A stretch of DNA of 64,000 bases, from the NCBI RefSeq assembly GCF_002157505.1, contig NZ_NFSC01000031.1:310001-374000 (forward strand), given 5' to 3'. The notes under the pieces were generated by a model. It saw nothing but the letters and a program-made list of their open reading frames with translations. It did not search any database and had not been told where the DNA came from. The stretch is from Arthrobacter agilis. GTDB taxonomy: Bacteria > Actinomycetota > Actinomycetes > Actinomycetales > Micrococcaceae. Each line of letters opens with the position of its first letter. Positions within the stretch are counted from its first letter, which is position 1. This document shows, piece by piece, positions 16,058 to 30,440 of the stretch. A program made the position numbers and the translations under genes.

Positions 16058-16921
16058 TCACTGGCCCAGGATCACGTGGGCAGCGTCTATTGCGCGGTCG
16101 ACCACCGTGGTGGGCGCCTCGAGATGCACGGCTCCGGAGGGGATGATGCCCGCCCCGCCATGGCGTTCCATGACGCGCCACTGGGCGGCGACGTCCTCGC
16201 CGGCGTGCTCGGGCGGGAGCTTGTCCCAGAAGTCGAACCCGCCGCACTCCACGAGGGCCTCGCGGTCGAACAGCACGCATCCGCCCACCCAGGCGACCCG
16301 GTACAGCCGCCAGCCCCCGGGCGGGACCGCCAGTTCGGCGGCGGCATGGGCGAGGTTCGCCGCGTTGTGGAGCGGCCAGCGGGCGAAGCCCTCCGACCCG
16401 GGGCGGATCCGCTCCGGCATCACCTCGTCGTCCGGCCACAGCGCCAGCTCCGTCCGCTCGTGCGGCCGGCGGTCCTCGAGGTAGGACAGGCCCTGGACGG
16501 CGGATCCGATGAATCCGCACCGGGCCGCCCGGATCGCCCTGGTCATGCGGTCCAGCGAACCGGGTTCCAACCAGACATCGTTGTCGAGGAACAGGACGAG
16601 CGGGGCGCTCGACAGTTCCAGCAGGTAGTTGCGGTGTTCCGCCAGCCCCCTGCGCGGCAGGTGGCGCACGAGTTGCACCGGGTGGCCCTGGGCCTCGAGG
16701 ACCCGCACCATCGCACGGACGGCGGGCTGCTCGTAGGACGCGTCCTCGCCCTCGGTCTGGTCGCTCACGAGCACCCGGAACGGCACGTGGTCCTGGGCCG
16801 CGAGCCCGGACAGCGTCACGGCGAGTTCGGCGGGGCGGCCGTAGGACGGAATCAGCACATCGACGGCGGGCTCGTCCCCCGCCGTGTCCAGGGCCCACTC
16901 CCCCGACCAGCGGCGGGTCAC
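16058..16921 (-). CDS. Glycosyltransferase family 2
   Basis: Inverting GT-A glycosyltransferase of 287 residues. The family start VDVLIPSYGRPAELAVTLSGLA is at about 20-42, and the metal/nucleotide LDND motif (FLDNDVW) is at about residue 120. The protein has an ED motif (HAGEDVAAQW) near 247 and no membrane helix. Sugar donor and acceptor are unknown. GTG at 16921 overlaps the stop of the hldE-like gene by 4 bases (GTGA), so the two are translationally coupled and this gene belongs to the heptose locus, as the last gene of the aldehyde dehydrogenase-hldE-GT2 operon. Confidence 0.9.
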   Translation of the reverse strand: MTRRWSGEWALDTAGDEPAVDVLIPSYGRPAELAVTLSGLAAQDHVPFRVLVSDQTEGEDASYEQPAVRAMVRVLEAQGHPVQLVRHLPRRGLAEHRNYLLELSSAPLVLFLDNDVWLEPGSLDRMTRAIRAARCGFIGSAVQGLSYLEDRRPHERTELALWPDDEVMPERIRPGSEGFARWPLHNAANLAHAAAELAVPPGGWRLYRVAWVGGCVLFDREALVECGGFDFWDKLPPEHAGEDVAAQWRVMERHGGAGIIPSGAVHLEAPTTVVDRAIDAAHVILGQ

Positions 16922-18462
16922 GGCAGGTCTCCTGCCAGCGGGCTCGAGCGGATCCGGCGCACCACTGCCGCGGTCGAGTGCTCCGGGACGTAGTCGAGGA
17001 TGCTGACCCGGCCGCCGCAGGCCTCGACGGCGGGAGCCTCCTCGAGCATCTGCGCCGTGTAGTCACCGCCCTTCGCGTACACGTCGGGCTTCAGCAGCTC
17101 GATCAGCGGGACGAGCGTGTCGGAGCCGAAGACGGTGACGTAGTCGACGCAGCTGAGCGAGGCGATGACGCCCGCGCGGTCCGCGATCGGATTTATGGGA
17201 CGGTCGGGGCCCTTCAGCCTGCGCACGCCGTCGTCGTCGTTCAGGGCGACCACGAGGACGTCGCCGAGCTGCTTCGCCTGGTTGAGGTAGCGGGTGTGGC
17301 CGCGGTGCAGCACGTCGAAGCAGCCGTTCGTCAGGACGATGCGGCGTCCCGCCGCGCGGTCGGCCTCCACCTTCCGGAGCAGGTCCGCCGTCGACAGCGC
17401 TGTGTCCGCGAACTGTTGCAGATGGGCCGTGAGGTCCGCCGTCGTGCACACGGAGGTACCCGGTCGATGGACGACGACATCGGCGGCCGCCTGGGCGAGG
17501 TCGAGGCTCGTCGTGAGGGGCAGGCCCGCTGCGCGTGCGGCCGTGAGGCTCGCGACGAAGGTGTCGCCCGCGCCGGATGCCTGCTTCTCGGTGGCGGGCT
17601 TGGCCCATGTCCGGTGCTCCTCGCCGTCCTGGCCGAGCAGCACCGTGCCGTCGCGGTCGAGGGTCACGACGACGGCGGCGGCGTTCGTGGCCGCGAGGAG
17701 CTCGCTCCGCCGTTCGGTCACCGTCGCGGCCCGGTCCGACCGCGGGTCGAGGCGCATCGCGAGGACCTGGGCGGCCTCCTGCGCATTCGGGGTGACGATG
17801 TCCGGTCCCAGCGCGGACCACGCCGCGGTGTCGTGGGCGTCGACGACGACGAGCGTCTCCGGACCGATCGTCGAGGCGCGCCCGAGTGCGGACCGGACCT
17901 CCTCCCCGAGAGCACCCGAGCCGTAGTCGCAGACGACGACGGCGTCGGCTCCCGCGACGGCACGGGGGATCCTGGCGGCGAGCGCGGTGACAGCCTCCGG
18001 GGGGAGCTGGTCGTGCGTGTCGTCGAGCCGGAGCATGACCTGGTCACCGCCGAGGATCCGGTACTTCGTGGTGGTGCCCACGCGGTCGTCCTGCACCAGG
18101 TCCGTCGTGTCCACCCCCGCGTCCTCGAGGATCGTGTGCAGGCGGCGACCGGCGTCGTCCGTACCGATGAGCCCGCACATCCGCACACGTGCGCCGAGGG
18201 CGGCGAGGTTCATGGCCGTGTTCGCCGCACCGCCGGCAGCATAGTCGCGCCGGGTGATGTCGACGACGGGCGCCGGAGCCTCACGGCAGAACCGTTCAAT
18301 GGTGCCGCTCCACCATCCGTCCAGCATGGCATCGCCCACCACCGTGATGAGGGGTGCGCGGTCGGCGATGGCGGTCGGGACCCAGGCTGCGAGCCCGCGG
18401 ACCTCGGAGAGGTCTCCCGCGTCGTCCGGCATCGCGTTGTAGTCCTGCAGTGCGTCGTCCAT
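16918..18462 (-). CDS. Bifunctional HldE-like heptose kinase / heptose-1-phosphate nucleotidyltransferase, copy 1
   Basis: In the known HldE pathway, the N-terminal kinase makes heptose 1,7-bisphosphate and the C-terminal domain makes ADP-heptose from heptose 1-phosphate and ATP. Residues about 35-345 form a PfkB/ribokinase fold with AAGGAANTAMNLAALGA and the catalytic GAGD (Asp300). Residues about 360-514 form a nucleotidyltransferase with HRGH at 386-389 and YAKGGDY. The length is 514, slightly above E. coli HldE. The start overlaps the aldehyde dehydrogenase stop by one base (TGATG). A second, shorter paralogue lies at 22040-23407. The nucleotide (ADP, GDP or CDP) is not certain from sequence. 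Confidence 0.88.
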   Translation of the reverse strand: MDDALQDYNAMPDDAGDLSEVRGLAAWVPTAIADRAPLITVVGDAMLDGWWSGTIERFCREAPAPVVDITRRDYAAGGAANTAMNLAALGARVRMCGLIGTDDAGRRLHTILEDAGVDTTDLVQDDRVGTTTKYRILGGDQVMLRLDDTHDQLPPEAVTALAARIPRAVAGADAVVVCDYGSGALGEEVRSALGRASTIGPETLVVVDAHDTAAWSALGPDIVTPNAQEAAQVLAMRLDPRSDRAATVTERRSELLAATNAAAVVVTLDRDGTVLLGQDGEEHRTWAKPATEKQASGAGDTFVASLTAARAAGLPLTTSLDLAQAAADVVVHRPGTSVCTTADLTAHLQQFADTALSTADLLRKVEADRAAGRRIVLTNGCFDVLHRGHTRYLNQAKQLGDVLVVALNDDDGVRRLKGPDRPINPIADRAGVIASLSCVDYVTVFGSDTLVPLIELLKPDVYAKGGDYTAQMLEEAPAVEACGGRVSILDYVPEHSTAAVVRRIRSSPLAGDLP

Positions 18463-19871
18463 CAGGCACCCTCCGGCGGTGCGCTGATGTGGACGACCTT
18501 CACCAGGGCGAACTCGTCGAGCAGTTCGGGTCCGTAGCCGAAGCCGGCCCCGCTGATGCCGCGGGGCTGGGCAGAACCGCCCGGCGCACCGCCGAAGACA
18601 GCGTTCACCTTGACGGTGCCGACGGCCAGTCCGGCGATGGCACGCTGGGCATGCGCGATACTGCCGGTGAGCACGGACGCGGCCAGGCCGTAGGGGCCGG
18701 CGGCAGCGAGGCGGAGCCCGTCGTCGAAGCTGTCGACCACGGTCACGGGCGCGACGGGCCCGAAGGTCTCCTCCGTCATGACCGTCATGGCCTCCGTGCA
18801 GCCCGCGAGGACCGTTGCGGGGTAGTGGGATCCGGGGCCTTCGGGCACGGTGCCACCCTCGAGGGGGTCGGCGCCGAGCTGGAGGGCTTCACGGACCTGG
18901 GCATCGACGGCGTCCCGCATGCGGCGATCCACCAGCGGGGGGAACGTCCCGCTCGCGTTCCGGCTCCGCGCCTCCTCGGTGAGAGCGGCCAGGAACGGTT
19001 CGGCGATGGCCCGGTGGACGTAGATGCGCTCCACGGACGTACAGATCTGGCCCGCGTTGGCGAAGGCGCCGAGGGCCGCCTGGCCTGCCGCCCACACCGG
19101 GTCGACGTCGGCGTCGACGATCAGGGGGTCGTTCCCGCCGTTCTCGCGGAGAACGTGCGCGCCGGTGAGGGACGCGGCGCGTGCGATCCGGGCCCCGGTG
19201 GCGCTCGAGCCGACGTGGGCGAAGACATCGACACCCGTCTCCATCGTGAGCATCTGGCCCACCCCGGCGCCGCCGGTGAGCGTGGTGAGGACACCGTCCG
19301 GGAAGGCCGGCTGCAGCAGTCGTCCGAGCAGTTCGCCCACGTGCGGGCACCGTTCGCTCGGCTTGTGGATGACGGTGTTGCCCGTGACGAGGGCTGCGCC
19401 GATGAGTCCTGCGGCGACGGCCACCGGGTCGTTCCAGGGGGTCAGGAGCACGGCGACTCCCCGCGGCTCGGCCACGGTGTAGTCGGTGGCGGTGACGGCT
19501 CCCCGGAGGCTGAGTCCGCGGTGGACGGGGCCGAGTTCCGCGTACTGCTCCAGCGTGGAAATCCCGGCTTCGATGCCGCCGAGCGCATCCTCGAGGGGCT
19601 TGCCGGTCTCCCGCGTGTTGAGTTCGGCGAGTTCACGGGCGCCGGCGCGGAGCGCACCTGCGGCCCGCCGGAGTGCGGCGCCCCGCTCGGCGGGACTCGT
19701 GGCCGCCCACTCGGGCTGAACGGTCCGTGCCAGTGAGACCGCGAGTGCCACCTGTTCGCGGGCAGCGCTGGGAAGGGTTCCCACCTCGCTGCCGTCCCGG
19801 GGATCGGAGATGGTGATCGACTCGTCCTCCTGCACATCAAGCGGGGAGTGTGCCTGGGAGTTGATGGACAT
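18462..19871 (-). CDS. Aldehyde dehydrogenase family protein
   Basis: NAD(P)-dependent oxidation of an aldehyde. Catalytic residues are present: Cys277 (GQICTSVERIYV), Glu243 (LRENGGNDP), oxyanion Asn147 (TPWNDP) and Lys170 in HKPSE. The 469-residue length is normal for the superfamily. The chosen ATG at 19871 has CGAGGAGAG upstream; the frame is open further upstream without a ribosome site. It is the first gene of the operon with hldE copy 1 and the GT2 gene, so its substrate may be a sugar-derived aldehyde, but this is inference. The closest general similarity is to succinate-semialdehyde or benzaldehyde dehydrogenase types. Confidence 0.9.
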   Translation of the reverse strand: MSINSQAHSPLDVQEDESITISDPRDGSEVGTLPSAAREQVALAVSLARTVQPEWAATSPAERGAALRRAAGALRAGARELAELNTRETGKPLEDALGGIEAGISTLEQYAELGPVHRGLSLRGAVTATDYTVAEPRGVAVLLTPWNDPVAVAAGLIGAALVTGNTVIHKPSERCPHVGELLGRLLQPAFPDGVLTTLTGGAGVGQMLTMETGVDVFAHVGSSATGARIARAASLTGAHVLRENGGNDPLIVDADVDPVWAAGQAALGAFANAGQICTSVERIYVHRAIAEPFLAALTEEARSRNASGTFPPLVDRRMRDAVDAQVREALQLGADPLEGGTVPEGPGSHYPATVLAGCTEAMTVMTEETFGPVAPVTVVDSFDDGLRLAAAGPYGLAASVLTGSIAHAQRAIAGLAVGTVKVNAVFGGAPGGSAQPRGISGAGFGYGPELLDEFALVKVVHISAPPEGA

Positions 19872-20131
19872 TGCTCTCCTCGATGTCGTGTACCGCCGCG
19901 GCATGGTTCCGCCGCACGGCTAGTGGTCCCGTACCCACCTTCCGTGCGTTCACACACGCCACCGGCCGATTTCTGCACCCGCGTCCATCAGCACGCTTAG
20001 CATAATGTGGCAGGAGGAGGGGCGGCCGCTTCACCGCTCCGGGAGAAGGCATGGACAGTAGCAGCAGCCCTGTGTAGAGGTGGAGAGGCACACCGGGCAC
20101 CGGGCGATCAGACACAGGAACGGGGATATAC

Positions 20132-21286
20132 GTGACGCAGCAGGACACGACGGCGGACTTCGGCGGGCGGCAGGACACGGCGCGGTCCGTCGGGCCCGTG
20201 CTCGCCCCGTTCGCGGACATCCGGCGGATCGCCGTCCTGCGCGGAGGCGGACTCGGCGACCTCATGTTCGCGATGCCGGCCATCGCGGCCCTCAAGAACC
20301 GGTACCCGGACGCGGAGATCACCCTCCTCGGCATGCCGGGCCACGCCGCCCTGCTCGAGGGCAGGCCGGGGCCCGTGTCCGCCGTCCTGGAGCTCCCGGT
20401 CTCTCCCGGCGTACGGCCGGGCGATGTGGACCCCGGTGCCGTCGACCGGTTCTTCGACGGGGTCCGCGGGTCCTTCGATCTCGCCGTCCAGCTCCACGGC
20501 GGCGGGCGCAATTCGAATCCCTTCCTGCTGCGCCTGGAAGCACGCCACACCATCGGGACGCGCACGCCCGACGCCGCGGGACTCGAACGGACCATCCCGT
20601 ACGTGTACTACCAGCACGAGGTGTTCCGCGCCCTCGAGGTGGTGGGCCTGGCCGGCGCGACGCCGGTCGACCTGGAGCCGCGGGTCCAGGTCCTGCCGGA
20701 GGAGGTCGAGCTCGCGGCCGGGCTGACGGGGAGCGGCGCGGTGATAGCACTGCACCCCGGCGCGACGGACCCGCGCCGGAGGTGGCCGTCGTCGTCCTTC
20801 GCGGACGTCGCCGTGAGGGCGGCGGCCGATGGCTGCGAGGTGCTGGTGGTCGGGGATGCCACGGACGTCCCGACGGCGGAGGAGATCGTGCGCCTCGCGC
20901 TCGACCGTGACCCGGAGGCGAACGTCCGTTCGCTCGCCGGACAGCTGACGCTCGGCGAGCTGACCGGGGTGCTGGACCGCAGCGCCGTCATGGTCGGCAA
21001 TGACAGCGGGCCGCGGCACCTGGCCCAGGCGGTCGGCACGCCGACCGTCGGCGTGTACTGGATCGGCAACGTGATCAACGCGGGAGCAATGGGACGATCG
21101 CTCCACCGCGTGCATTTCTCCTGGGTGACCTCGTGCCCGGTGTGCGGGGTGGATGTCACGCAGGTGGGCTGGACGGCCGAACGCTGCGAGCACGATGACT
21201 CGTTCGTTGCGACCGTCCAGCCCGACGCCGTCTACGCGGACGTGGCGGAACTCAGGGCCACGAGCCTTCTTCTGCGTGGGCGATGA
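20132..21286 (+). CDS. Glycosyltransferase family 9 (heptosyltransferase-like), copy 1
   Basis: GT9 enzymes transfer heptose from ADP-heptose in LPS-forming bacteria. The N-terminal RIAVLRGGGLGDLMFAMPA (about residues 31-49) and the C-terminal ALHPGATDPRRRWP and GNDSGPRHLAQAVGTP motifs are diagnostic of the GT-B heptosyltransferase fold. It has 384 residues and no signal peptide. The C terminus carries a cysteine group (SCPVCG, then RCEHD) of possible metal-binding type. The GTG start at 20132 follows GGGGA. It is monocistronic, divergent from the aldehyde dehydrogenase operon, and its last 35 bases overlap the convergent SDR gene. Confidence 0.9.
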   Translation: MTQQDTTADFGGRQDTARSVGPVLAPFADIRRIAVLRGGGLGDLMFAMPAIAALKNRYPDAEITLLGMPGHAALLEGRPGPVSAVLELPVSPGVRPGDVDPGAVDRFFDGVRGSFDLAVQLHGGGRNSNPFLLRLEARHTIGTRTPDAAGLERTIPYVYYQHEVFRALEVVGLAGATPVDLEPRVQVLPEEVELAAGLTGSGAVIALHPGATDPRRRWPSSSFADVAVRAAADGCEVLVVGDATDVPTAEEIVRLALDRDPEANVRSLAGQLTLGELTGVLDRSAVMVGNDSGPRHLAQAVGTPTVGVYWIGNVINAGAMGRSLHRVHFSWVTSCPVCGVDVTQVGWTAERCEHDDSFVATVQPDAVYADVAELRATSLLLRGR

Positions 21287-21977
21287 CCATCTCGCGGATC
21301 TCGCAGCTCTTGGGCTGAGAGAGCGCGAAGAGGATCGCCTCGGCGACGCGCTCCGGGTCGTTCAGCCGTGAATCGTCCTGCGGCTTGTACTGCTCGTCGC
21401 GGTCGTCGAAGAAGCGGGTCTTCATGCCGCCGGGGATGATCGTCGTGACGCCGATCTGGCCGGCGGTCTCCGCGGCCAGTGCCTGGGAGAACCCCATGAC
21501 GCCGAACTTGGAGGCGCAGTAGGCCGTCGCGTCGCCGACGGCCTTGATGCCCAGCGTCGAGGCGATCGTGACCACGCGGCCGTGTGTCTTCTTGAGGTAC
21601 GGCAGGGCGGCGCGGGCGGTCGAGGCGGTACCCAGGAGGTTCACGCCGATCACCTTCTCCCACTGGTCGGCGGGCACCGTGTCGAGGGCGCCGCACCGGT
21701 CGATGCCGGCAGCGGTGACGACGGCGTCCAGGCCGTCCATCGTCTCCGCGGCTTCCCGCACCGCCGCCTCGACGGCCTCGCGGTCCGCGACGTCGACCTC
21801 GAAGGCCTTGACGCCCGTCACGCGGCTGATGTCGCGGTCGAGCACCACGGGGGTGCCTCCCGCGGCGAGGACGCCCTGCACGATGGCCGCGCCGAGGCCC
21901 GAGCCTCCGCCGGTCACCAGGACGCGTCCGGGGTTGAAGCTCCTGCTTGCTGCGGGAGTTGGTGTGTTCTCAGTCAT
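21252..21977 (-). CDS. Short-chain dehydrogenase/reductase (classical type)
   Basis: NAD(P)-dependent oxidoreductase of 241 residues. The cofactor motif TGGGSGLG is at about 22-29 and the active site is Y153CASK157. This spacing (TGxxxGxG) and length define a classical SDR. It is not an extended SDR and so not the heptose epimerase HldD. The ATG at 21977 has GAAAGGA upstream. It lies 62 bases after hldE copy 2 at the end of the large glycan operon, so it may act on a sugar or lipid part of the same product. Its 3' end overlaps the convergent GT9 gene by 35 bases. Confidence 0.9.
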   Translation of the reverse strand: MTENTPTPAASRSFNPGRVLVTGGGSGLGAAIVQGVLAAGGTPVVLDRDISRVTGVKAFEVDVADREAVEAAVREAAETMDGLDAVVTAAGIDRCGALDTVPADQWEKVIGVNLLGTASTARAALPYLKKTHGRVVTIASTLGIKAVGDATAYCASKFGVMGFSQALAAETAGQIGVTTIIPGGMKTRFFDDRDEQYKPQDDSRLNDPERVAEAILFALSQPKSCEIREMVIAHAEEGSWP

Positions 21978-22039
21978 GCTGTTCCTTTCGTTGCGTGCGC
22001 CCGGCCGACGAGATGGACCGGGTGCGGGTCTGTAGCCGC

Positions 22040-23407
22040 TCAGCCGACGCGGGCGAGCGCGGCGGCAAGTTTCGTGGTGGAGCGGGCTGGAATGTAGGGG
22101 ACGGTGACCGTCCTGCCGCCCCAGCTGCTGACGAGGGCAGCTTCGGGGAGGTCCTCCGCGGCGTAGTCGCCGCCCTTGACCCAGATGTCGGGCTGCAGGC
22201 GCGAGATGGCGTTCTCGGGGGTCGACTCGCTGAAGATGAGCACCGCGTCGACGCATTCGAGGGCGGACAGCAGCTCGGCGCGGTCCTCCTGCTTGATGAT
22301 CGGCCGGTCCTCGCCCTTCAGCCCGCGCACCGACTCGTCGGAGTTGAGGCAGACGATGAGGCAGTCGCCGAGGCGCCGGGCCGCAGCGAGCGTGCGGGCG
22401 TGGCCTGCGTGCAGGAGGTCGAAGCACCCCCCGGTCGCCACCACCGTCCCCCCTGATTCCCGTGTCCGGCGGACCACGTTGAGGGCGTCGAGGCCGTCGA
22501 CGGGCAACTGCTCCGGGGTCTCCTCGCGGCTTCTGCCCATGGCTCCCACGCCTCCGGACGCGAGGAAGTGCGCGGCGGCTTCCGTCGCCTCCTGCGCGGC
22601 GCCGTCGATCGGAGCTCCCTGCGCCAGCCCGACGGCGAGCGCGGAGGCGAAGCGGTCACCGGCCCCGCAGGGGTCGGAGGCGGCCACGCGGGGCGCCGGC
22701 ACCACCTGGGGCAGGAGGCCGGCTGCTGCGACGAGCGCTCCGTGCTCCCCCATCGTGACGAGGACGGCCTTGCTCCGCCAGGTCGCGAGCAGCACCTCCG
22801 CAGCCGCGGCCGCCGCCTGCGTCCCCGACCCCCGGACGTCGGCGAAGCGGAGGGCCTCGCCGATGTTCGGGGTCACGGCGGCGACACCCGGGACGGGCTG
22901 CGCTCCGGCGGGATGGGGGTCCCAGACCACGGGGATCGATGCGGAGAGCGCCTCGAGGCGGGCGCGCAGGTCGTTGTTGGCGAGCAGCCCGCGGCCGTAG
23001 TCGGCGGCGATGATCGCGTCGGCCCCCTCGAGTGCCGAGAGCATGTCCCCGGTGCAGCCCGGGACGGGCGGCTTCGCGCACCCCTCGTCGAAGCGCACCA
23101 CGGGCTGCCCGGAGGCGCGGACGCGGGTCTTCACGGGCGTGGGTGCTCCCGAGGGGCCGGCGACGACGGTGATCCCGTCGAGTTCGGCACGCAGCAGCCC
23201 GGCGGCATCGTCCTCACCGAGGACGGTGACCAGGACGGCGTCGTGCCCGTCCGCCTGCAGCATGCGGGCCACGAGGCCTGCTCCCCCGGCGCGGCGCTGG
23301 ATCGCGTCGACGTCGACGACGGGCACGGGGGCGTCGGGCGAGAGCCGCCCGGCATCACCGGACAGGTCCGTGTCGAGCAGTACGTCTCCGACCACCACGA
23401 TCCTCAT
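22040..23407 (-). CDS. Bifunctional HldE-like kinase / nucleotidyltransferase, copy 2
   Basis: Same domain order as copy 1 but shorter (455 residues) and clearly diverged. The PfkB-type kinase half (about 1-290) has RRAGGAGLVARMLQADG and the catalytic GAGD (Asp251). The nucleotidyltransferase half (about 320-455) has HAGH at 333-336, CLNSDESVRGLKGEDRP and WVKGGDY. Both active sites look intact. The start ATG overlaps the gmhA stop by 4 bases. Two such fusions in one locus suggest either different nucleotide or heptose specificity, or that each contributes mainly one half-reaction. Confidence 0.87.
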   Translation of the reverse strand: MRIVVVGDVLLDTDLSGDAGRLSPDAPVPVVDVDAIQRRAGGAGLVARMLQADGHDAVLVTVLGEDDAAGLLRAELDGITVVAGPSGAPTPVKTRVRASGQPVVRFDEGCAKPPVPGCTGDMLSALEGADAIIAADYGRGLLANNDLRARLEALSASIPVVWDPHPAGAQPVPGVAAVTPNIGEALRFADVRGSGTQAAAAAAEVLLATWRSKAVLVTMGEHGALVAAAGLLPQVVPAPRVAASDPCGAGDRFASALAVGLAQGAPIDGAAQEATEAAAHFLASGGVGAMGRSREETPEQLPVDGLDALNVVRRTRESGGTVVATGGCFDLLHAGHARTLAAARRLGDCLIVCLNSDESVRGLKGEDRPIIKQEDRAELLSALECVDAVLIFSESTPENAISRLQPDIWVKGGDYAAEDLPEAALVSSWGGRTVTVPYIPARSTTKLAAALARVG

Positions 23408-24111
23408 CGCTGCTCCTCCCGGCGGCGGTGCACCTCTGCGTCGAAGGCACGGCAGATGGCGTGGAGGGCTATCAGGTGGCCCTCCTGGGCATTGGCGGAC
23501 GTCGCGTCGACCGCCACGTAGTCGTCCACGCACTCGGTCAGCGGATTGGGGCCAACGCCGGTGAGCGCCCAGGTGGTGATGCCGGCCGCACGCGCGGCCT
23601 CGACGGCATGGAGCAGGTTGGGGCTCTTGCCGCTCGTGCTCAGGAGCATGAGGATGTCCCCCGGACGGCCGTGGGCGCTCACCTGGCGGGCGAACATCCG
23701 GTCGAAGCCGTAGTCGTTGGCGATCGCCGTCACGGCGGAGCTCTCGGCGTGGAGCGAGATCGCGGAGAACGGCTCGCGTTCGCCGTCGAACCGGCCCACG
23801 AGTTCGGCGGTCAGGTGCTGTGCCTCGGCGGCGGAGCCACCGTTGCCCGCTGCGAGGAGGCGCTGGCCGGCCAGGAGCCGGTCCGCCATCTCCACGCCCC
23901 AGGCCGCCAGGGTGGCGGTGCTGCCGAGGAGGGACTCGACCGCCGGTGCGACGGCGCGCAGGTGCTCCAGGACGATCCGGTGCGAATCGGCCCGCACCCG
24001 GTCGGCCCTGCCGTCCGGGCTGCCCGGATCGAGGGGCGTAGCTGGTGGTGCGGCGGTCGGTGCTGCCGCGGTGCGCGTATCCGGGAATACGTCGGAGAAA
24101 TGCGTGGTCAC
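23404..24111 (-). CDS. gmhA: Sedoheptulose-7-phosphate isomerase
   Basis: First step of heptose activation: sedoheptulose 7-phosphate to D-glycero-D-manno-heptose 7-phosphate. SIS-domain protein with GNGGSAAEAQHLTAELVGRF and STSGKSPN. The zinc ligands seem conserved as His99, Glu103, Gln209 and His217, with almost the same spacing as in E. coli GmhA (61/65/172/180). The total of 235 residues includes an N-terminal extension of about 40 that is Pro/Ala/Asp-rich. The GTG at 24111 overlaps the GT4 stop by 4 bases; hldE copy 2 follows with another 4-base overlap. Confidence 0.92.
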   Translation of the reverse strand: MTTHFSDVFPDTRTAAAPTAAPPATPLDPGSPDGRADRVRADSHRIVLEHLRAVAPAVESLLGSTATLAAWGVEMADRLLAGQRLLAAGNGGSAAEAQHLTAELVGRFDGEREPFSAISLHAESSAVTAIANDYGFDRMFARQVSAHGRPGDILMLLSTSGKSPNLLHAVEAARAAGITTWALTGVGPNPLTECVDDYVAVDATSANAQEGHLIALHAICRAFDAEVHRRREEQR

Positions 24112-25400
24112 AGTGCCCTGCCTCCCGTGCTTTCGAGTCGACGCGCGGCACTGCGCCGCGCTGTTGCCGGTTGTGCGGACGCTGCCGCGCCCAGGGCCGT
24201 CTGGTAGGCCTTCTCGGTATCGGCCGCGATGCGGCTCCACGAATAGCGGGCCTTGACGCGGCGGTAGCCGTTGTCGCCGAGTTCGCGCCCCCACTCGGGA
24301 TCGGCGACGATGTCGGCGATGGCCGCCGCGATGGCCGCCGGGTCCTGCGGGGGGACGTGGAGCCCGGTCTTGCCGTCCACCACGGTGTCCACGAGCCCGC
24401 CGACGGCCGCGGCGATCACGGGGACCCCGCAGGCCATCGCCTCGAGCGGGACGATGCCGAACGGCTCGTACCAGGGCGCGCAGACCACGGCGTCGGCGCT
24501 CCGGAGGACCGCGGGCATCTCGGCACGCGACACCTGGCCCCGGAGGACGACCCTGTCGCCGACGCCGAGGTCGACCGCCAGCGCGCGGAGCCGCTGCGCC
24601 TCGGGATCGTCCTCGAGCCCGGTGGAGTTGCCCGCGCCGCCCACGATGACGAGTTCGACGTCGTCGCGCCCTCTGTCGGCGAGCTCGCGCAGGGCGCTGA
24701 TCGCGAGGTCCATGCCCTTGCGGGGCACGAGGCGGCCCACGCTCACGATCCGGTGGGCTCGTCCGCGCTCCTCCACCGGGCCGCGCGGGGTGAACAGTTC
24801 GAGGTCCACGCCGCAGGGGGCGATCGACACCCGGCTGCCCGGGACACCCATGGCCTTGAGTTCGAAGACCTCGTCCGAGCAGGTGGCGACGATGCGGTCG
24901 GCGCTCCGGCCCACCATCGTCTCGAGCATGAGGCGCTCGGACGGGCTGGTGTCCTCGGCGCCCTGGTGACGGCGCTTGACCGTTCCGAGCGCGTGGAAGG
25001 TCTGGAGAACCTGCACCGGGCGCCCGGCGGCCCGTGACTGTCCGGCGGCGTCGAGCGCTGCGAGTCCCGACATCCAGAAGTGCCCGTGCACGATGTCCGG
25101 TGGCTCGGTGCCCCAGTCCTCCACGATGCCCGCGGCGAGTTCGCCCATGTAGGGCAGCAGCATGTCCTTCGGGACGCTGCGCACGGGTCCCGCGGTGATG
25201 TGCACGACCTCCAGCCTCGGGTCGGTCCGGACGCGGTCAGGGAGGGCCGGGTCGTCGCGGCGCGTGTACACCGTGACCTCGTGTCCCCGGCGGGCGAGCG
25301 CGAGGGACAGTTCGGCCACATGGACGTTCTGCCCGCCGGCATCCACGCCCCCCAACGCCGCGAGTGGGCTTGCATGCTCAGACACCATCGATATCCTCAC
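24108..25400 (-). CDS. Glycosyltransferase family 4
   Basis: Retaining GT-B enzyme of 430 residues. The N-terminal GGVDAGGQNVHVAEL (about 17-31) resembles the sugar-phosphate acceptor loop of the MshA/sucrose synthase group. The C-terminal EPFGIVPLEAMACG contains the donor-binding EX7E motif. Residues after about 400 are a basic Ala/Arg tail. No signal peptide. The GTG at 25400 overlaps the previous gene's stop, and the 3' end overlaps gmhA, both by 4 bases. Its acceptor could be a phosphorylated sugar or lipid; the donor is unknown. Confidence 0.9.
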   Translation of the reverse strand: MRISMVSEHASPLAALGGVDAGGQNVHVAELSLALARRGHEVTVYTRRDDPALPDRVRTDPRLEVVHITAGPVRSVPKDMLLPYMGELAAGIVEDWGTEPPDIVHGHFWMSGLAALDAAGQSRAAGRPVQVLQTFHALGTVKRRHQGAEDTSPSERLMLETMVGRSADRIVATCSDEVFELKAMGVPGSRVSIAPCGVDLELFTPRGPVEERGRAHRIVSVGRLVPRKGMDLAISALRELADRGRDDVELVIVGGAGNSTGLEDDPEAQRLRALAVDLGVGDRVVLRGQVSRAEMPAVLRSADAVVCAPWYEPFGIVPLEAMACGVPVIAAAVGGLVDTVVDGKTGLHVPPQDPAAIAAAIADIVADPEWGRELGDNGYRRVKARYSWSRIAADTEKAYQTALGAAASAQPATARRSAARRLESTGGRAL

Positions 25401-26398
25401 TGCGCTTTCCTTTCTGTTACCGCCAGGACCGGGTGCCGCGTCGGGTCCTGCGCCAGGACGTCGTCCCAGTCGGCGAGGAACCGGGCGAGCCCGTACCGTG
25501 CGAGTGCCGCCTCCCGGGCAGCCAGTCCCCGTGTCCGGGCTTCGTCCGGGTCGTCGATCAGGCGTGCCGCCATCCGCACGAGGTCGTCGATGCTGGTCGA
25601 GATGGCTCCGGCCTCGGGCGGCACCGCGCGTGCCGCCTCCGTCGTTGCGAGCGCCAGCACGGGAAGCCCGACGTGCATGGCTTCCAGGAGGGAGAGTCCG
25701 AGGGAGGTCCAGCGCAGTGGGTGGACGTAGGCCCGCGAGCGTCCGAGCCGGGCGTGCAGTTCGGCCATGGAGAGGTCTCCGCCGATGCGCAGCTCCCCGG
25801 GGCCGAGGTCGAGCGTGTCCGCGAGCTGGTCCGTGCCCATGCCGAAGACCTCCAGCGGGGCGACGCCCGCGAACCGCGGAAGGAGGTCCGTCCCGGTGAT
25901 GCGTCCGCGCCGGACGGGCTCGTTGATGACGGCGGCGAGCTGCTCGAGCTCACCGCTGTAGAGGTACCCCGGGTCGACGATGCCGTGCTCGATGACGCGG
26001 GTCCTCGCGGCGCCGTTGTCCCAGAAGAGCTCGTTGAAGTGGGTGACGTGGATGACCGGGATGTCGGTCTGCCCGGCGAGCGGGTGCACGGTGCCGACGA
26101 TGTCACGGCGCGGCGTGTTGTGCTCGAGGAAGACGGCCGGGAGGTCCCGCCCCGGCGTGCGCCCGAGGAGCCGCTCGCACTCGGCGATCTCCTCGACCCG
26201 CTGCAGGACGACGACGTCGATGTCCGCGTCCCGGAGGTCGGAGGGCGCCACCTCGATGACGGAGGCCGGCCAGTCGCGGCCGGCACGGCCGAGGCCCCAC
26301 GCGCCGCCGTCGGGGGTGGTCGGCAGCACGTAGGTGTGTGTACCCCTCACGAAGGCATCGGTCCACCCTCCGTGGACGTGCCATAACAGGATCCTCAT
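25397..26398 (-). CDS. Glycosyltransferase (GT-B, GT4-like)
   Basis: 333-residue protein starting MRILLWHVHGGW. The C-terminal TSLGLSLLEAMHVGLPVLAL is the GT4 donor-site pattern with its Glu residues, and HARLGRSRAYVHPLRW is the usual preceding block. The N-terminal half is short and diverged (FLEHNTPRRD, VTHFNELFWDNG). No signal peptide or membrane helix. It is joined to both neighbours by ATGA or GTGA overlaps in the gmhB-GT9-GT-GT4-gmhA-hldE operon. Its substrate is unknown. Confidence 0.85.
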   Translation of the reverse strand: MRILLWHVHGGWTDAFVRGTHTYVLPTTPDGGAWGLGRAGRDWPASVIEVAPSDLRDADIDVVVLQRVEEIAECERLLGRTPGRDLPAVFLEHNTPRRDIVGTVHPLAGQTDIPVIHVTHFNELFWDNGAARTRVIEHGIVDPGYLYSGELEQLAAVINEPVRRGRITGTDLLPRFAGVAPLEVFGMGTDQLADTLDLGPGELRIGGDLSMAELHARLGRSRAYVHPLRWTSLGLSLLEAMHVGLPVLALATTEAARAVPPEAGAISTSIDDLVRMAARLIDDPDEARTRGLAAREAALARYGLARFLADWDDVLAQDPTRHPVLAVTERKAQ

Positions 26399-27498
26399 CG
26401 GTTTCCCCTCGTTGTTCTGCGGCCTTCTGTGCGGCCGATGCTGCGGCGTGAGCCGAGTGACGATATTCCGGAGCTGAGCCGGAGGACGGCGTCGACGACG
26501 TCCTCCGGGGAGACGTTGGACAGGCACGGGTGGCCCTGGACGGGGCAGATGCGGGCCCGGCTGAGCGCACACGCGGCCTGCTGGTCGCCCAGCAGTTCGA
26601 CGGGCACGCGGTAGGGCGCCCAGCGGATCGCCGGCACGACGGGCGAGAAGAGGCAGACGACGGGTGTGCCGACGGCGGCCGCCAGGTGCGCGGGACCGGT
26701 GTTCCCGGTGACGACGACGGACGCTCCGGCGAGGACGGAGCCCAGCGTGGCGAGGTCCGTCCGTCCGCCGAGGTCCAGGGCCTCCGGTCCGGCGACGGTG
26801 GAGGTCAGGTCGGTCTCGTTCGGCCCGCCGGTGACGACGACGCGGAACCCGGCCGCGGTCAGGAGCTCGACGGCGGCCGCATGGTGCAGCGGCGGCCAGG
26901 CGCGCGCGGGCACGGATGCCCCGGGGTGCACGACGACGTAGGGCCCGCGTCCCACGAGCTCCGACGCGTCGGTGAGGTTGGTGACCTGGAGCCTGCCGTC
27001 GTCGCCGGGGGCCAGGGCGTAGCCCGCGGCCTCCGCGATGCCCAGCGCGCGCTCGGCCTCCGGCTGGTCCTCCGGGAAGTCCTCCCCGGGCTTCAGCCGC
27101 ACGTCGAGGAGCGAGCCCGCATAGTCGACGGACGCACCGGCGATCCGCCGCACTCCCGCCAGCCGGAGCAGCAGCGCGAGCGGCAGGGGTGACTGGTGGA
27201 ACGACGTCAGGAGAACGGCCTCGTCCACGTCCAGAGCCAGCACCGCGTCGTGCAGTTCCCCGACGAGTTCGGGCGTGGGCTCGGGCGGAGGATCCACGAT
27301 CCAGGGAGCGGACCAGGTGAGAACGTCGACGACGCCGGGCAGGAGCCGGGCGGCCGCGGCCCCCTGCGGCCCGCACAGCATGACGACGTCGTTCGGGGAG
27401 TCCCCGTGGTCCCCCGCGGCGATCGCGCGGACGGCCGGCCCCGCGAGGAGCACGTCCCCGGCGCTGTCGAGCCGGGCCACCAGCACGCGCCGCCTCAT
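26395..27498 (-). CDS. Glycosyltransferase family 9 (heptosyltransferase-like), copy 2
   Basis: GT-B enzyme of 367 residues with the GT9 motifs: VLVARLDSAGDVLLAGPAVRA (about 5-25), VHPGASVPARAWPP and GNTGPAHLAAAVGTPVVCLF. A CALSRARICPVQGHPCL segment near the C terminus resembles the cysteine region of copy 1. Basic tail of about 25 residues. The ATG at 27498 overlaps the gmhB stop by 4 bases. Because it sits directly after gmhB in the operon, it is the strongest candidate for a true heptosyltransferase here. Confidence 0.9.
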   Translation of the reverse strand: MRRRVLVARLDSAGDVLLAGPAVRAIAAGDHGDSPNDVVMLCGPQGAAAARLLPGVVDVLTWSAPWIVDPPPEPTPELVGELHDAVLALDVDEAVLLTSFHQSPLPLALLLRLAGVRRIAGASVDYAGSLLDVRLKPGEDFPEDQPEAERALGIAEAAGYALAPGDDGRLQVTNLTDASELVGRGPYVVVHPGASVPARAWPPLHHAAAVELLTAAGFRVVVTGGPNETDLTSTVAGPEALDLGGRTDLATLGSVLAGASVVVTGNTGPAHLAAAVGTPVVCLFSPVVPAIRWAPYRVPVELLGDQQAACALSRARICPVQGHPCLSNVSPEDVVDAVLRLSSGISSLGSRRSIGRTEGRRTTRGNR

Positions 27499-28040
27499 GG
27501 CGTCGCCCACAGGGACTCGACGGCGTGGGCGAGGTCGCGGGCGACGACCGGAGCCGAGAGGATCTCCTCCTCGAGTGTGATGTCGGTCGGGACCAGCACC
27601 CCGCGGGCCCCCGCGGCCGCGGCGGCACCCATGTCCGCTCCGATGTCCCCCACGACGGCGACGTCGGACGGGTCGAGGCCGAGGCGCGCACTGGCGGAGA
27701 GGACCATGCCCGGACCGGGCTTGCGGCACGCGCACCCGTCGGCCGCCCCGTGCGGGCAGACCTCCCAGAGGTCGAAGGGCCCCAGCAGTTCCTCCACCCG
27801 GGCGTTGACGGCATCCACCTGCTCCCGCGTGACGAAGCCCCGCGCGATGCCCGACTGGTTGGTGACGACCCCCACGGGGATGCCACGGGACCGCAGGCCG
27901 TCGAGGACCTCGCGTGCGCCCGGCATGGGCCGTACGAGCGCCGGATCCCCGTTGTAGGGGACGTCGACGACGATGGTCCCGTCGCGGTCGAACAGGACCG
28001 CCCGAGGGGCTGTCTGGGTGTGTCCGGCCGAAGTGTTCAT
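27495..28040 (-). CDS. gmhB: D-glycero-D-manno-heptose-1,7-bisphosphate phosphatase (HAD-IIIA)
   Basis: HAD phosphatase that removes the 7-phosphate of heptose 1,7-bisphosphate, the step between the two HldE reactions. Of 181 residues, Asp18 and Asp20 lie in FDRDGT, then TNQSGIARG, the zinc loop C95-x-H97...C103-x-C105 (VCPHGAADGCACRKPG), and GDIGADM. The zinc loop separates GmhB from the histidinol-phosphatase-like relatives less well than the context does, so the assignment rests on both. It is the first gene of the six-gene overlapping operon. The ATG at 28040 has only a weak ribosome site. Confidence 0.88.
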   Translation of the reverse strand: MNTSAGHTQTAPRAVLFDRDGTIVVDVPYNGDPALVRPMPGAREVLDGLRSRGIPVGVVTNQSGIARGFVTREQVDAVNARVEELLGPFDLWEVCPHGAADGCACRKPGPGMVLSASARLGLDPSDVAVVGDIGADMGAAAAAGARGVLVPTDITLEEEILSAPVVARDLAHAVESLWATP

Positions 28041-28216
28041 ACAGGCTTAGTTCCCGAGAAGAAGCAGTACTAAACACTTTCTCCCGAACTTCTTCTCCTG
28101 CTTCTCCTCGCGCCTCTCCTTCCCGACCGCGATTCCGATCCCTCCTGGCCCCGTGACGACCCCCGCACCGGCGCACGACGACGGGCGTCCGCCGATCCTC
28201 TGGCAGGATAATTCGC

Positions 28217-29257
28217 ATGACTTCCGAGGGCACCAGCGCCGCGAGCGCCCAGCAGGCATTCCAGGGACCGCACCGGCACCTATCCGTCGATCCGACTCCC
28301 CGCTCCATCCCCAGCACGACTCCCCCACCCGACGGGCGTCCCGAGATCCTGGCCCTCCGCGCGCTCAAACTCGGCGACCTCCTCGTCGCCGTGCCGGCAC
28401 TCCGGGGACTGCGCCGCGCATTCCCCGACCACCGGATCTTCTACGCCGCGCAGGAATGGCTCCGGCCCATCGTCGCCCTCACCGACGCCGTCGACGATCT
28501 GCTGCCCACGCACGGGCTCGACGACCCCCTTCCCATCGAGCACGGGCGGATCGACCTGGCCGTCAACCTGCACGGCAACGGCGCGGAGAGCCGGGGACGC
28601 CTCGAGGAGATCGGCGCGAAACGCCTGATGGGCCACAGCGCACCGGGCTGGGACGGGCCCGAGTGGGACAACGACGCGCTCGAGCGGAAACGCTGGGCCT
28701 CGCTCGTCGGCTGGCACGGCGTTCCGGCAGATCCACTGGACTGCCGCCTCCGGGTGCCCGACGGCGACAGCCCGGCGCCCGACGCCGTCGTCGTGCATGT
28801 CGGAGCCGCCTATGGCAGCCGGCTCTGGCCCGTGGAGCGGTTCGCGGCAGTCGCACGTTCCCTGGCCGCCGCAGGTCATCAGGTGGTCTTCACAGGCAGC
28901 GAGAAGGAACGGCCGCGCGCCCTCGCCGTCGCCGACGCAGCCGGCCTGCCCGAGGACACGGTCGCCGCGGGCAAACTCCCGCTCGACCGCTTCGCACGAC
29001 TGATCGCCGGGGCGTCCCTCGTGATCTCCGCGGACACGGGCGCCGCCCACCTCGCGTCGGCCTACGCGAGGCCGTCGATCATCCTGTTCGGGCCGGCACC
29101 GGTGTCGTCGTGGGGGCCGCCGCCCGGACCCCACACCGTCCTGACGGATGAGTCCCTCCGCCTCGGCGAGACCTTCTCCCCCACGCCGGACCCTGCCCTG
29201 CTGGCCGTGACGGTCGAGCAGGTGCTGGCCGCCGCAGCGGACCACGGCATCTCCTAG
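28217..29257 (+). CDS. Glycosyltransferase family 9 (heptosyltransferase-like), copy 3
   Basis: 346 residues, with a Pro/Ser-rich N-terminal extension of about 40 before the GT9 start (EILALRALKLGDLLVAVPALRGLRR). The C-terminal domain has VHVGAAYGSRLWPVERFA and SADTGAAHLASAYARP. The N-terminal K-x-GDLL motif is intact. It lacks the cysteine-rich C terminus seen in copies 1 and 2, so it probably acts on a different acceptor. It is divergent from the gmhB operon with a 176-bp shared upstream region. GATAAT (28207-28212) sits four bases before the ATG. Convergent with the sigma-factor gene. Confidence 0.9.
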   Translation: MTSEGTSAASAQQAFQGPHRHLSVDPTPRSIPSTTPPPDGRPEILALRALKLGDLLVAVPALRGLRRAFPDHRIFYAAQEWLRPIVALTDAVDDLLPTHGLDDPLPIEHGRIDLAVNLHGNGAESRGRLEEIGAKRLMGHSAPGWDGPEWDNDALERKRWASLVGWHGVPADPLDCRLRVPDGDSPAPDAVVVHVGAAYGSRLWPVERFAAVARSLAAAGHQVVFTGSEKERPRALAVADAAGLPEDTVAAGKLPLDRFARLIAGASLVISADTGAAHLASAYARPSIILFGPAPVSSWGPPPGPHTVLTDESLRLGETFSPTPDPALLAVTVEQVLAAAADHGIS

Positions 29258-29331: not shown

Positions 29332-30276
29332 TCAGGCGATCCTGGATCCTGCCGCCCGCTGGTCCTGCGCGGCAGGAGCGCCGAGGAGCCTCTTCTGAAG
29401 CTTCACGAGGATCCGCGCGAGGGTCCTCGAGACCTGCATCTGGGACATGCCGAGCTCGTCGCCGATGCACTGCTGGGTCTGCTCCATGAAGTAGCGGCGG
29501 TAGAGGAGTTCCTTCTCGCTGCTGTCGAGTTCGTTGACGGCGCTGCGCAGGGAGATCAGGTCGTCGCTGCGCTCCATGCCGTTGTAGTCGGTGGCCAGCG
29601 TGTCCGCCCAGCTGCGTCCCTCGAAGGGCGCATCGAGGGAGTCGGGCCGCAGGCTCGAATGGGAGGCCTGCGCCTCGAGGATCTTGTCCTCCGGCCAGCC
29701 GAGCTCCAGTCCGAGTTCGCGGGCCGTCGCCTCACGGCCGAGCCTCTGGGCCAAGGCGGGTGCGGCCCGGGCGATCTCCGTGCGCAGGTCCTGGACGTCC
29801 CGCGGGGGCCGGACCACCCAGCACGAATCCCGCAGGTACCGCTTGATCTCGCCGTTGATCGTCGGCACGGCGAAGGAGGCGAAGGGAACGCCCCGTGCCG
29901 GATTGAAACGCTGCACGGCCTTGATGAGTCCGAGGTATGCGACCTGCCGGATGTCGGAGGCCTCCGGCCCCGACGCCGCGAAGGACCGTGCCACCGATTC
30001 GGCGATATCCATGTGCCGCAGGGCGATGTCGTCCTGCAGTGCCGCCTTGAGGGGACGCTCGGGGTACGTGCAGCCGGCCCCCTCGTCATCGAGGTCGAGG
30101 AGGTCGTCGAGGCTGTCGAGGGCGTTCGGTTCGACGTCGTTCCGGTCATCCTGCTCGACGTCGTTCCGGTCGTTCCGGTCGTCCTGTTCGACGTCGTTCG
30201 GTACGACGTCGTACGGGTCGGCGGCGTGCCCCGGAAGGGATTCGCCGGGCACCACGGGGGCGGCCGTACTCTGCAT
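29332..30276 (-). CDS. RNA polymerase sigma factor, SigB/SigF/SigG type
   Basis: Alternative sigma factor of the stress/sporulation group. Region 2 (DIRQVAYLGLIKAVQRFNPARGVPF), region 3 (EIKRYLRDSCWVVRPPR...) and region 4 (ELDSSEKELLYRRYF, then IGDELGMSQMQVSRTLARIL) are all present. I chose the ATG at 30276 because GGAG lies six bases upstream; ATG 30288 and GTG 30306 are in frame but less well placed. The N-terminal 60 residues are strongly acidic and built from DNA repeats (30131-30201). No anti-sigma gene is adjacent. Convergent with a GT9 gene. Confidence 0.92.
   Translation of the reverse strand: MQSTAAPVVPGESLPGHAADPYDVVPNDVEQDDRNDRNDVEQDDRNDVEPNALDSLDDLLDLDDEGAGCTYPERPLKAALQDDIALRHMDIAESVARSFAASGPEASDIRQVAYLGLIKAVQRFNPARGVPFASFAVPTINGEIKRYLRDSCWVVRPPRDVQDLRTEIARAAPALAQRLGREATARELGLELGWPEDKILEAQASHSSLRPDSLDAPFEGRSWADTLATDYNGMERSDDLISLRSAVNELDSSEKELLYRRYFMEQTQQCIGDELGMSQMQVSRTLARILVKLQKRLLGAPAAQDQRAAGSRIA
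30131..30201 (-). repeat. Tandem repeat in the acidic N terminus of the sigma factor
   Basis: The plus-strand unit TCGACGTCGTTCCGGTC recurs three times with variable linkers, encoding NDVEQDDRN repeats. The copies are almost identical in DNA, so they are young. Shorter diverged copies (ACGACGTCGTACGG) continue to about 30217. Confidence 0.8.
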
Positions 30277-30440
30277 GCTGTTCTCCATCAGGCGTCGGGC
30301 ACTCACGTCTCCCAACAAAACATCAGCTAGCTTAGTACGCAACCCCTTTCTTGTTCGGGTTCCCTTTTCGCCGAGCTCTTTCCCTTTCCCGATCACTCCT
30401 GTACAAAGCGGCTCCTCGGTCGACGGGGGCCAGGACATGC

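Follow-up and report, generated by a model that had tools for sequence, protein, structure and literature searches.

Predicted heptose activation in a Gram-positive bacterium: an Arthrobacter locus with the core of a widespread actinobacterial operon and two clades of HldE

Why would a Gram-positive soil bacterium keep a full set of enzymes for activating heptose, which in Gram-negative bacteria goes into the inner core of lipopolysaccharide (LPS)? The question is raised by 12 genes at positions 16058-29257 of a 64,000-nucleotide stretch of DNA, here called the window, from an Arthrobacter agilis-group genome of 3.88 Mb (31 contigs, 99% complete). An earlier note on this DNA had named GmhA, GmhB, two HldE-like fusions, three family 9 glycosyltransferases (GT9) and three other glycosyltransferases, and we found every one of them in place. 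Whether such a locus had been described was left undecided there. Its kind has been: six of the genes fit the cwg operon of Streptomyces coelicolor, and this core recurs widely in actinobacteria as an operon whose outline is known from Streptomyces. What the note had missed are two clades of HldE and the genes for a short-chain dehydrogenase (SDR) and an aldehyde dehydrogenase (ALDH). With a probability of roughly 0.7, we read the locus as the Arthrobacter version of this heptose operon, its activated heptose being built into a fixed-length oligosaccharide or glycolipid of the cell envelope.

The heptose-activation core

Six successive genes, from GmhB to HldE_A, overlap by 4 nt at each junction with the start codons that we chose.

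27495..28040, minus strand: GmhB, HAD-family heptose-1,7-bisphosphate 7-phosphatase with a zinc loop (C-P-H...C-x-C) in its sequence; cwgD counterpart
26395..27498, minus strand: GT9_b, GT9 heptosyltransferase-like protein with the motif NTGPAH; cwgE counterpart
25397..26398, minus strand: GTx, GT4-like glycosyltransferase of GT-B fold; in the cwgF position
24108..25400, minus strand: GT4, MshA-like paralogue; cwgG counterpart
23404..24111, minus strand: GmhA, sedoheptulose-7-phosphate isomerase; cwgH counterpart
22040..23407, minus strand: HldE_A, PfkB kinase plus nucleotidyltransferase, Leu replacing the Asn of the GGAAN motif; cwgI counterpart

GmhA matched SIS_2 with an E-value of 1.3e-21 and scored 146 bits with TIGR00441 (gmhA; cut-off 209); genome-wide, a GmhA profile gave one strong match of 328 bits, with the runner-up at 26 bits. 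Residues H102, E106, Q212 and H220 were invariant in all 13 aligned rows, and we take them to be the catalytic or metal residues, as in the E. coli and Burkholderia GmhA. GmhB reached 115 bits with the heptose-bisphosphatase model (cut-off 178), and its best PDB match was a D,D-heptose 1,7-bisphosphate phosphatase. The window encodes a second HldE, HldE_B, outside the core. Both proteins carry GAGD and HxGH; their E-values were 1e-23 and 5e-37 for PfkB and 2e-18 and 2e-15 for the nucleotidyltransferase family. With RfaE domain II they scored 182.3 (HldE_A) and 182.9 bits (HldE_B), both barely above the cut-off of 181.5, and with the HldE kinase-domain model 152 and 233 bits, both below the cut-off of 345. 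Among solved structures, both matched the Burkholderia heptose kinase HldA and, over the nucleotidyltransferase half, the putative cytidylyltransferase 5x9q. GT9 family matches had E-values of about 1e-22, and the GT9_b profile matched solved heptosyltransferases I and II. To judge from these scores, the family matches of the block are strong and not due to chance.

GTx has a GT-B fold and lies nearest to GT4 enzymes such as PimB'. GT4 was ruled out as MshA: its 242.7 bits fall short of the 462.5-bit cut-off, which a different gene of the genome passes with 491. The D or N residue of the TGxxH motif was insufficient to name the donors of the GT9 enzymes. Near the C-terminus of GT9_b, C310, C318, H323 and C325 were invariant in 15 of 15 aligned rows and are possibly a metal site; one relative (L043) was left out of this alignment, having an internal stop with the coordinates used.

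The Gram-negative adenosine diphosphate (ADP)-heptose pathway, in which GmhA, HldE, GmhB and HldD lead to WaaC and WaaF and the LPS inner core, shares with the block its four activation steps and the GT9 family. It differs in three respects. A profile search of the genome for LpxC, our test for the lipid A pathway, gave no match; for HldD all matches in the genome fell far below the cut-off (best 88.8 versus 274.6 bits); and HldE_A has Leu for Asn. The complete activation set thus stands beside glycosyltransferases with no sign of LPS, as the earlier note had held.

The cwg operon and the relatives of the locus

The cwg operon was reportedly first described by Hong et al. in 2002 as a cell-envelope stress operon. 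An excerpt of PMC6767563, which cites Hong et al. 2002 for the operon, gives it as SCO6179-SCO6190, 12 genes under direct SigE control that vancomycin induces in S. coelicolor and whose predicted product is a cell wall glycan. In the part of PMC5839063 that lists the genes, cwgD is annotated as a dehydratase, cwgE, cwgG and cwgJ as transferases, cwgH as phosphoheptose isomerase and cwgI as a bifunctional synthase/transferase, cwgF being unlisted; an extract from PMC5882110 terms cwgE a putative heptosyl transferase. We infer that the 'dehydratase' cwgD is GmhB, a relative of HisB. By annotated product names, the window order GmhB-GT9_b-GTx-GT4-GmhA-HldE_A fits cwgD to cwgI.

The window order was set against that of a Streptomyces-like locus, L040, and against the products annotated for SCO6182, SCO6183 and SCO6185-SCO6187. 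L040 holds 12 colinear genes (epimerase, carbamoyltransferase, GT2, GmhB, GT9_b, GTx, GT4, GmhA, HldE_A, GT9_a, GT2 and GT2), with the same core order as the window, and a site upstream of them matches 27 of the 29 bases of the published cwg promoter. On these sequence matches we regard L040 as a cwg operon of Streptomyces, and it is through this identity that the window core would be tied to cwg.

Outside the core the two arrangements part. The window has its cwgJ counterpart, GT9_a, on the other side and divergent; it lacks the carbamoyltransferase; the RmlB/GalE-like epimerase of L040 lies outside the window block; SDR, ALDH, HldE_B and GT9_c are added; and there is one GT2, compared with three in L040. 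Since PF16861 (carbamoyltransferase) had no match in the genome, we class the locus as a relative with a shared core and not as a full 12-gene cwg operon. The other block genes and one neighbour are as follows, the block being bounded by the end of the GT2 stop codon (16058) and the end of GT9_a (29257); GT9_a and GT9_c lie on the plus strand and the other ten block genes on the minus strand.

28217..29257, plus strand: GT9_a, GT9 heptosyltransferase-like protein with the motif DTGAAH, divergent from GmhB; cwgJ counterpart
21252..21977, minus strand: SDR, classical short-chain dehydrogenase, kept in the block among relatives
20132..21286, plus strand: GT9_c, third GT9 glycosyltransferase
18462..19871, minus strand: ALDH, aldehyde dehydrogenase, at which a second module begins
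16918..18462, minus strand: HldE_B, HldE of canonical type with the Asn kept; second module
16058..16921, minus strand: GT2, GT2 glycosyltransferase, overlapping HldE_B by 4 nt
29332..30438, minus strand: sigma-70 family sigma factor, adjoining the block

PF01075 (GT9) had three matches genome-wide, all in the block. A search of solved structures with SDR returned general SDRs only, with no gain in specificity, and one with ALDH, for which a strict threshold of E 1e-60 was set, found no match. The sigma factor is presumably SigB/F-like and may control the heptose block.

As the earlier note had suggested, the neighbourhood was searched across relatives. A GT9_b profile scan of named genomes found at least 542 relatives among 593 stretches, from which the best 80 loci, ranked by GT9_b similarity, were kept; a gene was counted as present at 40% identity or more, and 15 of the 80 loci were shorter than 18 kb. 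Because the loci were chosen by GT9_b similarity, the following figures lean upwards. All six core genes were present in 72 of the 80 and colinear on one strand in 66, and complete cores were found in loci of Arthrobacter, Curtobacterium, Clavibacter, Modestobacter and Nocardia as well as in L040. Companions were kept to varying degrees (SDR in 69, GT9_a in 63, HldE_B in 57, GT9_c in 44, ALDH in 41), and a sigma factor adjoined the block in 46. Among the eight loci that lack part of the core are short contigs, two from Amycolatopsis in which GTx and GT4 are missing, a Streptomyces locus (L129) in which GT4 and GmhA were not detected, and the two Arthrobacter loci L053 and L078 treated below. 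Arthrobacter agilis UMCV2 has a GT9_b with 95% identity to the window protein. One contig titled as a Streptomyces metagenome-assembled genome (L059) probably comes from an Arthrobacter and was misplaced, since its GT9_b and GT9_a are 71 to 73% identical to those of the window. In a class-wide sample, the heptose nucleotidyltransferase domain exceeded its cut-off in 31 of 148 genomes. The trait is common but patchy.

Some relatives show arrangements of their own. GmhB and GT9_b share one open frame of 559 residues at L031:14272-15951. GT9_a is followed by a TIR-domain and YheO-like PAS protein at L036:17380-18645 and by a gene of the UDP-glucose/GDP-mannose dehydrogenase family at L044:12006-13298, the latter suggesting, by its family, an acidic sugar in that lineage. 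A carbamoyltransferase occurred in the heptose locus of 15 out of 100 actinobacterial loci; NodU-like ones lie in the cluster in L028, L029, L038, L040, L042-L046 and others and share 66 to 76% identity with that of L040 (L042 91%; L129 86% over 211 residues). A part of PMC8005017 credits WapO, a putative carbamoyltransferase, with the carbamoyl group on the core heptose of Pseudomonas LPS. This may be a parallel; the genome of the window has no carbamoyltransferase match.

Two clades of HldE

At the Asn position of the GGAAN motif, HldE_A had Leu in 102 of 102 rows, whereas HldE_B (63 of 63) and E. coli HldE had Asn. On account of this Leu we class HldE_A as a divergent clade. In a tree of 29 A rows, 25 B rows and E. 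coli HldE, the split between the two clades had 100/100 support; the E. coli protein sat on a long branch beside B, where its placement is unsure. Catalytic motifs were kept in both clades: the kinase Asp (GAGD) in 87 of 87 A rows and 61 of 61 B rows, and both His of the nucleotidyltransferase HxGH in 87 of 87 and 60 of 61. Fourteen fragmentary or atypical frames (seven A, seven B) had been dropped before these residue counts, as had L142, which has no kinase part; L027 and L062 are one genome and were counted twice. As far as the literature searched reaches, the two clades are new.

PMC11573728 links the Arg of the motif (F/L)XXGRSTT, known as STTR5, to the use of CTP and UTP besides ATP. The full motif, that of promiscuous heptose nucleotidyltransferases, was absent from both window proteins, which have YIPARSTT (HldE_A) and YVPEHSTA (HldE_B). 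The Arg, which the window HldE_A has, was found in 85 of 102 A rows and 26 of 63 B rows.

In our genome sample, 33 genomes had HldE_A, 14 of these also had HldE_B, and none had B alone. A carbamoyltransferase was in the cluster in 20 of the 33; three genomes had both it and HldE_B, and two had neither, one of which is cut by a contig end. (The table was entered by hand; one genome, G114, with a single weaker HldE hit, is unclassified.) Mutual exclusion of HldE_B and the carbamoyltransferase is not claimed, as three genomes hold both at different places. Within a single locus the two occurred together in 0 of 15 cases, and because of this each appears to be a separate extension of a common core.

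Three of 87 A-clade frames join GmhA and HldE_A in a single open frame with isomerase, kinase and nucleotidyltransferase parts; the isomerase is therefore linked functionally to HldE_A.

L036:13084-15372: GmhA-HldE_A single frame
L039:4073-6337: GmhA-HldE_A single frame
L041:9591-11627: GmhA-HldE_A single frame

Tang et al. (2022) are said to have described tridomain nucleoside diphosphate (NDP)-heptose synthetases of actinobacteria. With its three GmhA-HldE_A frames, the A clade may include them. The window differs in having GmhA and HldE_A as separate overlapping genes and a second, didomain HldE_B.

What the block would make

We propose the following course for the heptose. GmhA would turn sedoheptulose 7-phosphate into heptose 7-phosphate, the kinase domain of HldE would add the 1-phosphate, GmhB would remove the 7-phosphate, and the nucleotidyltransferase domain would form the nucleotide-heptose. 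The GT9, GT4, GT4-like and GT2 enzymes would then work in the cytoplasm to assemble a heptose-containing oligosaccharide of fixed length on an acceptor, either a lipid or part of the cell wall, and machinery encoded elsewhere would export it. The sequences themselves establish the enzyme families, their motifs, the gene order and how far it is conserved; the sugar, its acceptor and export, the envelope site and the parts played by SDR, ALDH and HldE_B are inferred. The sugar is expected to be of the D-glycero form, because no HldD exceeded its cut-off. Envelope location is suggested by SigE control of the Streptomyces relative, the vancomycin-induced cwg operon. The block is unlike a typical repeat-unit polymer locus, since no flippase, polymerase or ABC transporter gene was found among its 12 genes; two matches to LCP glycopolymer ligases lie elsewhere in the genome.

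Several observations weigh against an envelope heptose glycan. That same lack of flippase, polymerase and transporter genes in the block is one, and the absence of the GGAAN Asn from all 102 HldE_A rows is another. Among NCBIfam equivalog models only RfaE domain II reached its cut-off, and GmhA, GmhB and the whole-length and kinase models of HldE all stayed below the NCBI curated values; since most of these cut-offs were unreached, the window enzymes are divergent from the Gram-negative ones. GmhA matched in only 60 of 297 genomes of the order (48 of them above 240 bits), for which reason the trait is accessory. Two 21-kb Arthrobacter loci, L053 and L078, keep GT9_b and lack most core genes. 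L078, from A. silvisoli, keeps SDR and the sigma factor with GmhB, GTx, GT4, GmhA and HldE_A not detected, and is possibly a lost cluster; in L053, the nearest named relative, GT4, GmhA and HldE_A were not detected, and runs of N mean that it cannot be judged. As to regulation, a scan with simple patterns found no SigE-like site (nor, as a separate matter, a SigB-like one) in the four intergenic strands of the window that it covered, and five other loci, some perhaps too short to include the start of the operon, had 10 or 11 mismatches to the cwg promoter. The best window match had 10 mismatches, and the SigE consensus may differ in Arthrobacter. A 2020 genome survey, as given in part of PMC7725333, found ADP-L-glycero-heptose only in Gammaproteobacteria, with false negatives admitted. 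No chemical product of cwg was found in the open-access literature searched, a limited library and hence weak evidence. Indeed, the word 'heptose' is absent from a 2021 review of cell wall glycopolymers (PMC7831098), and passages of PMC13274773, PMC3123327 and PMC4630627 say nothing on the product; PMC5563000 records a salt-induced heptosyltransferase gene in Frankia. Teichulosonic acid was ruled out as a product name, its S. coelicolor cluster being SCO4873-SCO4882, outside the cwg region.

The Leu of HldE_A raises the question of its substrate. In PfkB kinases the GGAAN Asn binds the sugar. HldE_A might therefore act on another sugar phosphate or anomer, the usual beta-manno-heptose nucleotide coming from HldE_B alone where that is present; the complete Leu/Asn contrast, the 100/100 split of the clades and a kinase-domain score of only 152 bits against 345 all speak for this. 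We nevertheless give it a small chance, as GmhA and GmhB lie in the same block, GmhA is fused to HldE_A in the three frames, the catalytic Asp is kept, and in a structure search with a model of HldE_A the seven best matches were all HldA chains. The heptose enzymes characterised in PMC11573728, where a tridomain type is listed, were moreover all able to make ADP-heptose; they may or may not include members of the A clade.

Other rivals concern the fate of the sugar. A small specialised metabolite, like septacidin or hygromycin B, would agree with the use of heptose in nucleoside antibiotics (part of PMC10948575) and with L041, from another genome, where no other queried block gene was detected beside the GmhA-HldE_A frame in 20 kb. 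It seems very unlikely given conservation of the block across many genera, six glycosyltransferases with no metabolite scaffold gene among the 12, and cell-envelope stress control of the Streptomyces counterpart. GT9 enzymes can act on proteins, and the block has three. Heptosylation of a surface protein, as by the Gram-negative autotransporter heptosyltransferases, is a still more improbable outcome: protein heptosylation is mentioned in the same portion of PMC10948575, but six glycosyltransferases suit a multi-sugar glycan better, and no acceptor-like protein is encoded among the 12 genes, acceptors elsewhere in the genome not having been searched for. Least credible is a nucleotide-heptose that stays soluble and itself serves a function, even though PMC11573728 discusses nucleotide-heptoses as free agonists; in 66 of the best 80 named loci the activation genes run colinear with glycosyltransferases, and the product is likely a heptose glycan.

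The envelope oligosaccharide or glycolipid therefore remains our preferred product. A more detailed version is speculative, and we put low odds on its parts holding together. Actinobacteria might have an equivalent of the inner core of LPS in the form of a heptose oligosaccharide, short and of fixed structure, that is anchored in the envelope. The two HldE clades of Arthrobacter and its relatives, which are paralogous, might each activate a heptose of its own while drawing on a single GmhA/GmhB supply, the Leu-bearing A clade having a changed specificity. SDR and ALDH might oxidise one of these heptoses to a heptouronic acid, and in other lineages the carbamoyltransferase might decorate the heptose instead.

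In conclusion, the Arthrobacter version is a variant of a known core with a second HldE module. With the cwg core recognised as a heptose-activation and GT9 block, a direct chemical test becomes simple. Should heptose be found, a class of sugar normally read as a mark of LPS would belong to a Gram-positive envelope, and these bacteria would contain nucleotide-heptoses of a type to which ALPK1 of vertebrates can respond.

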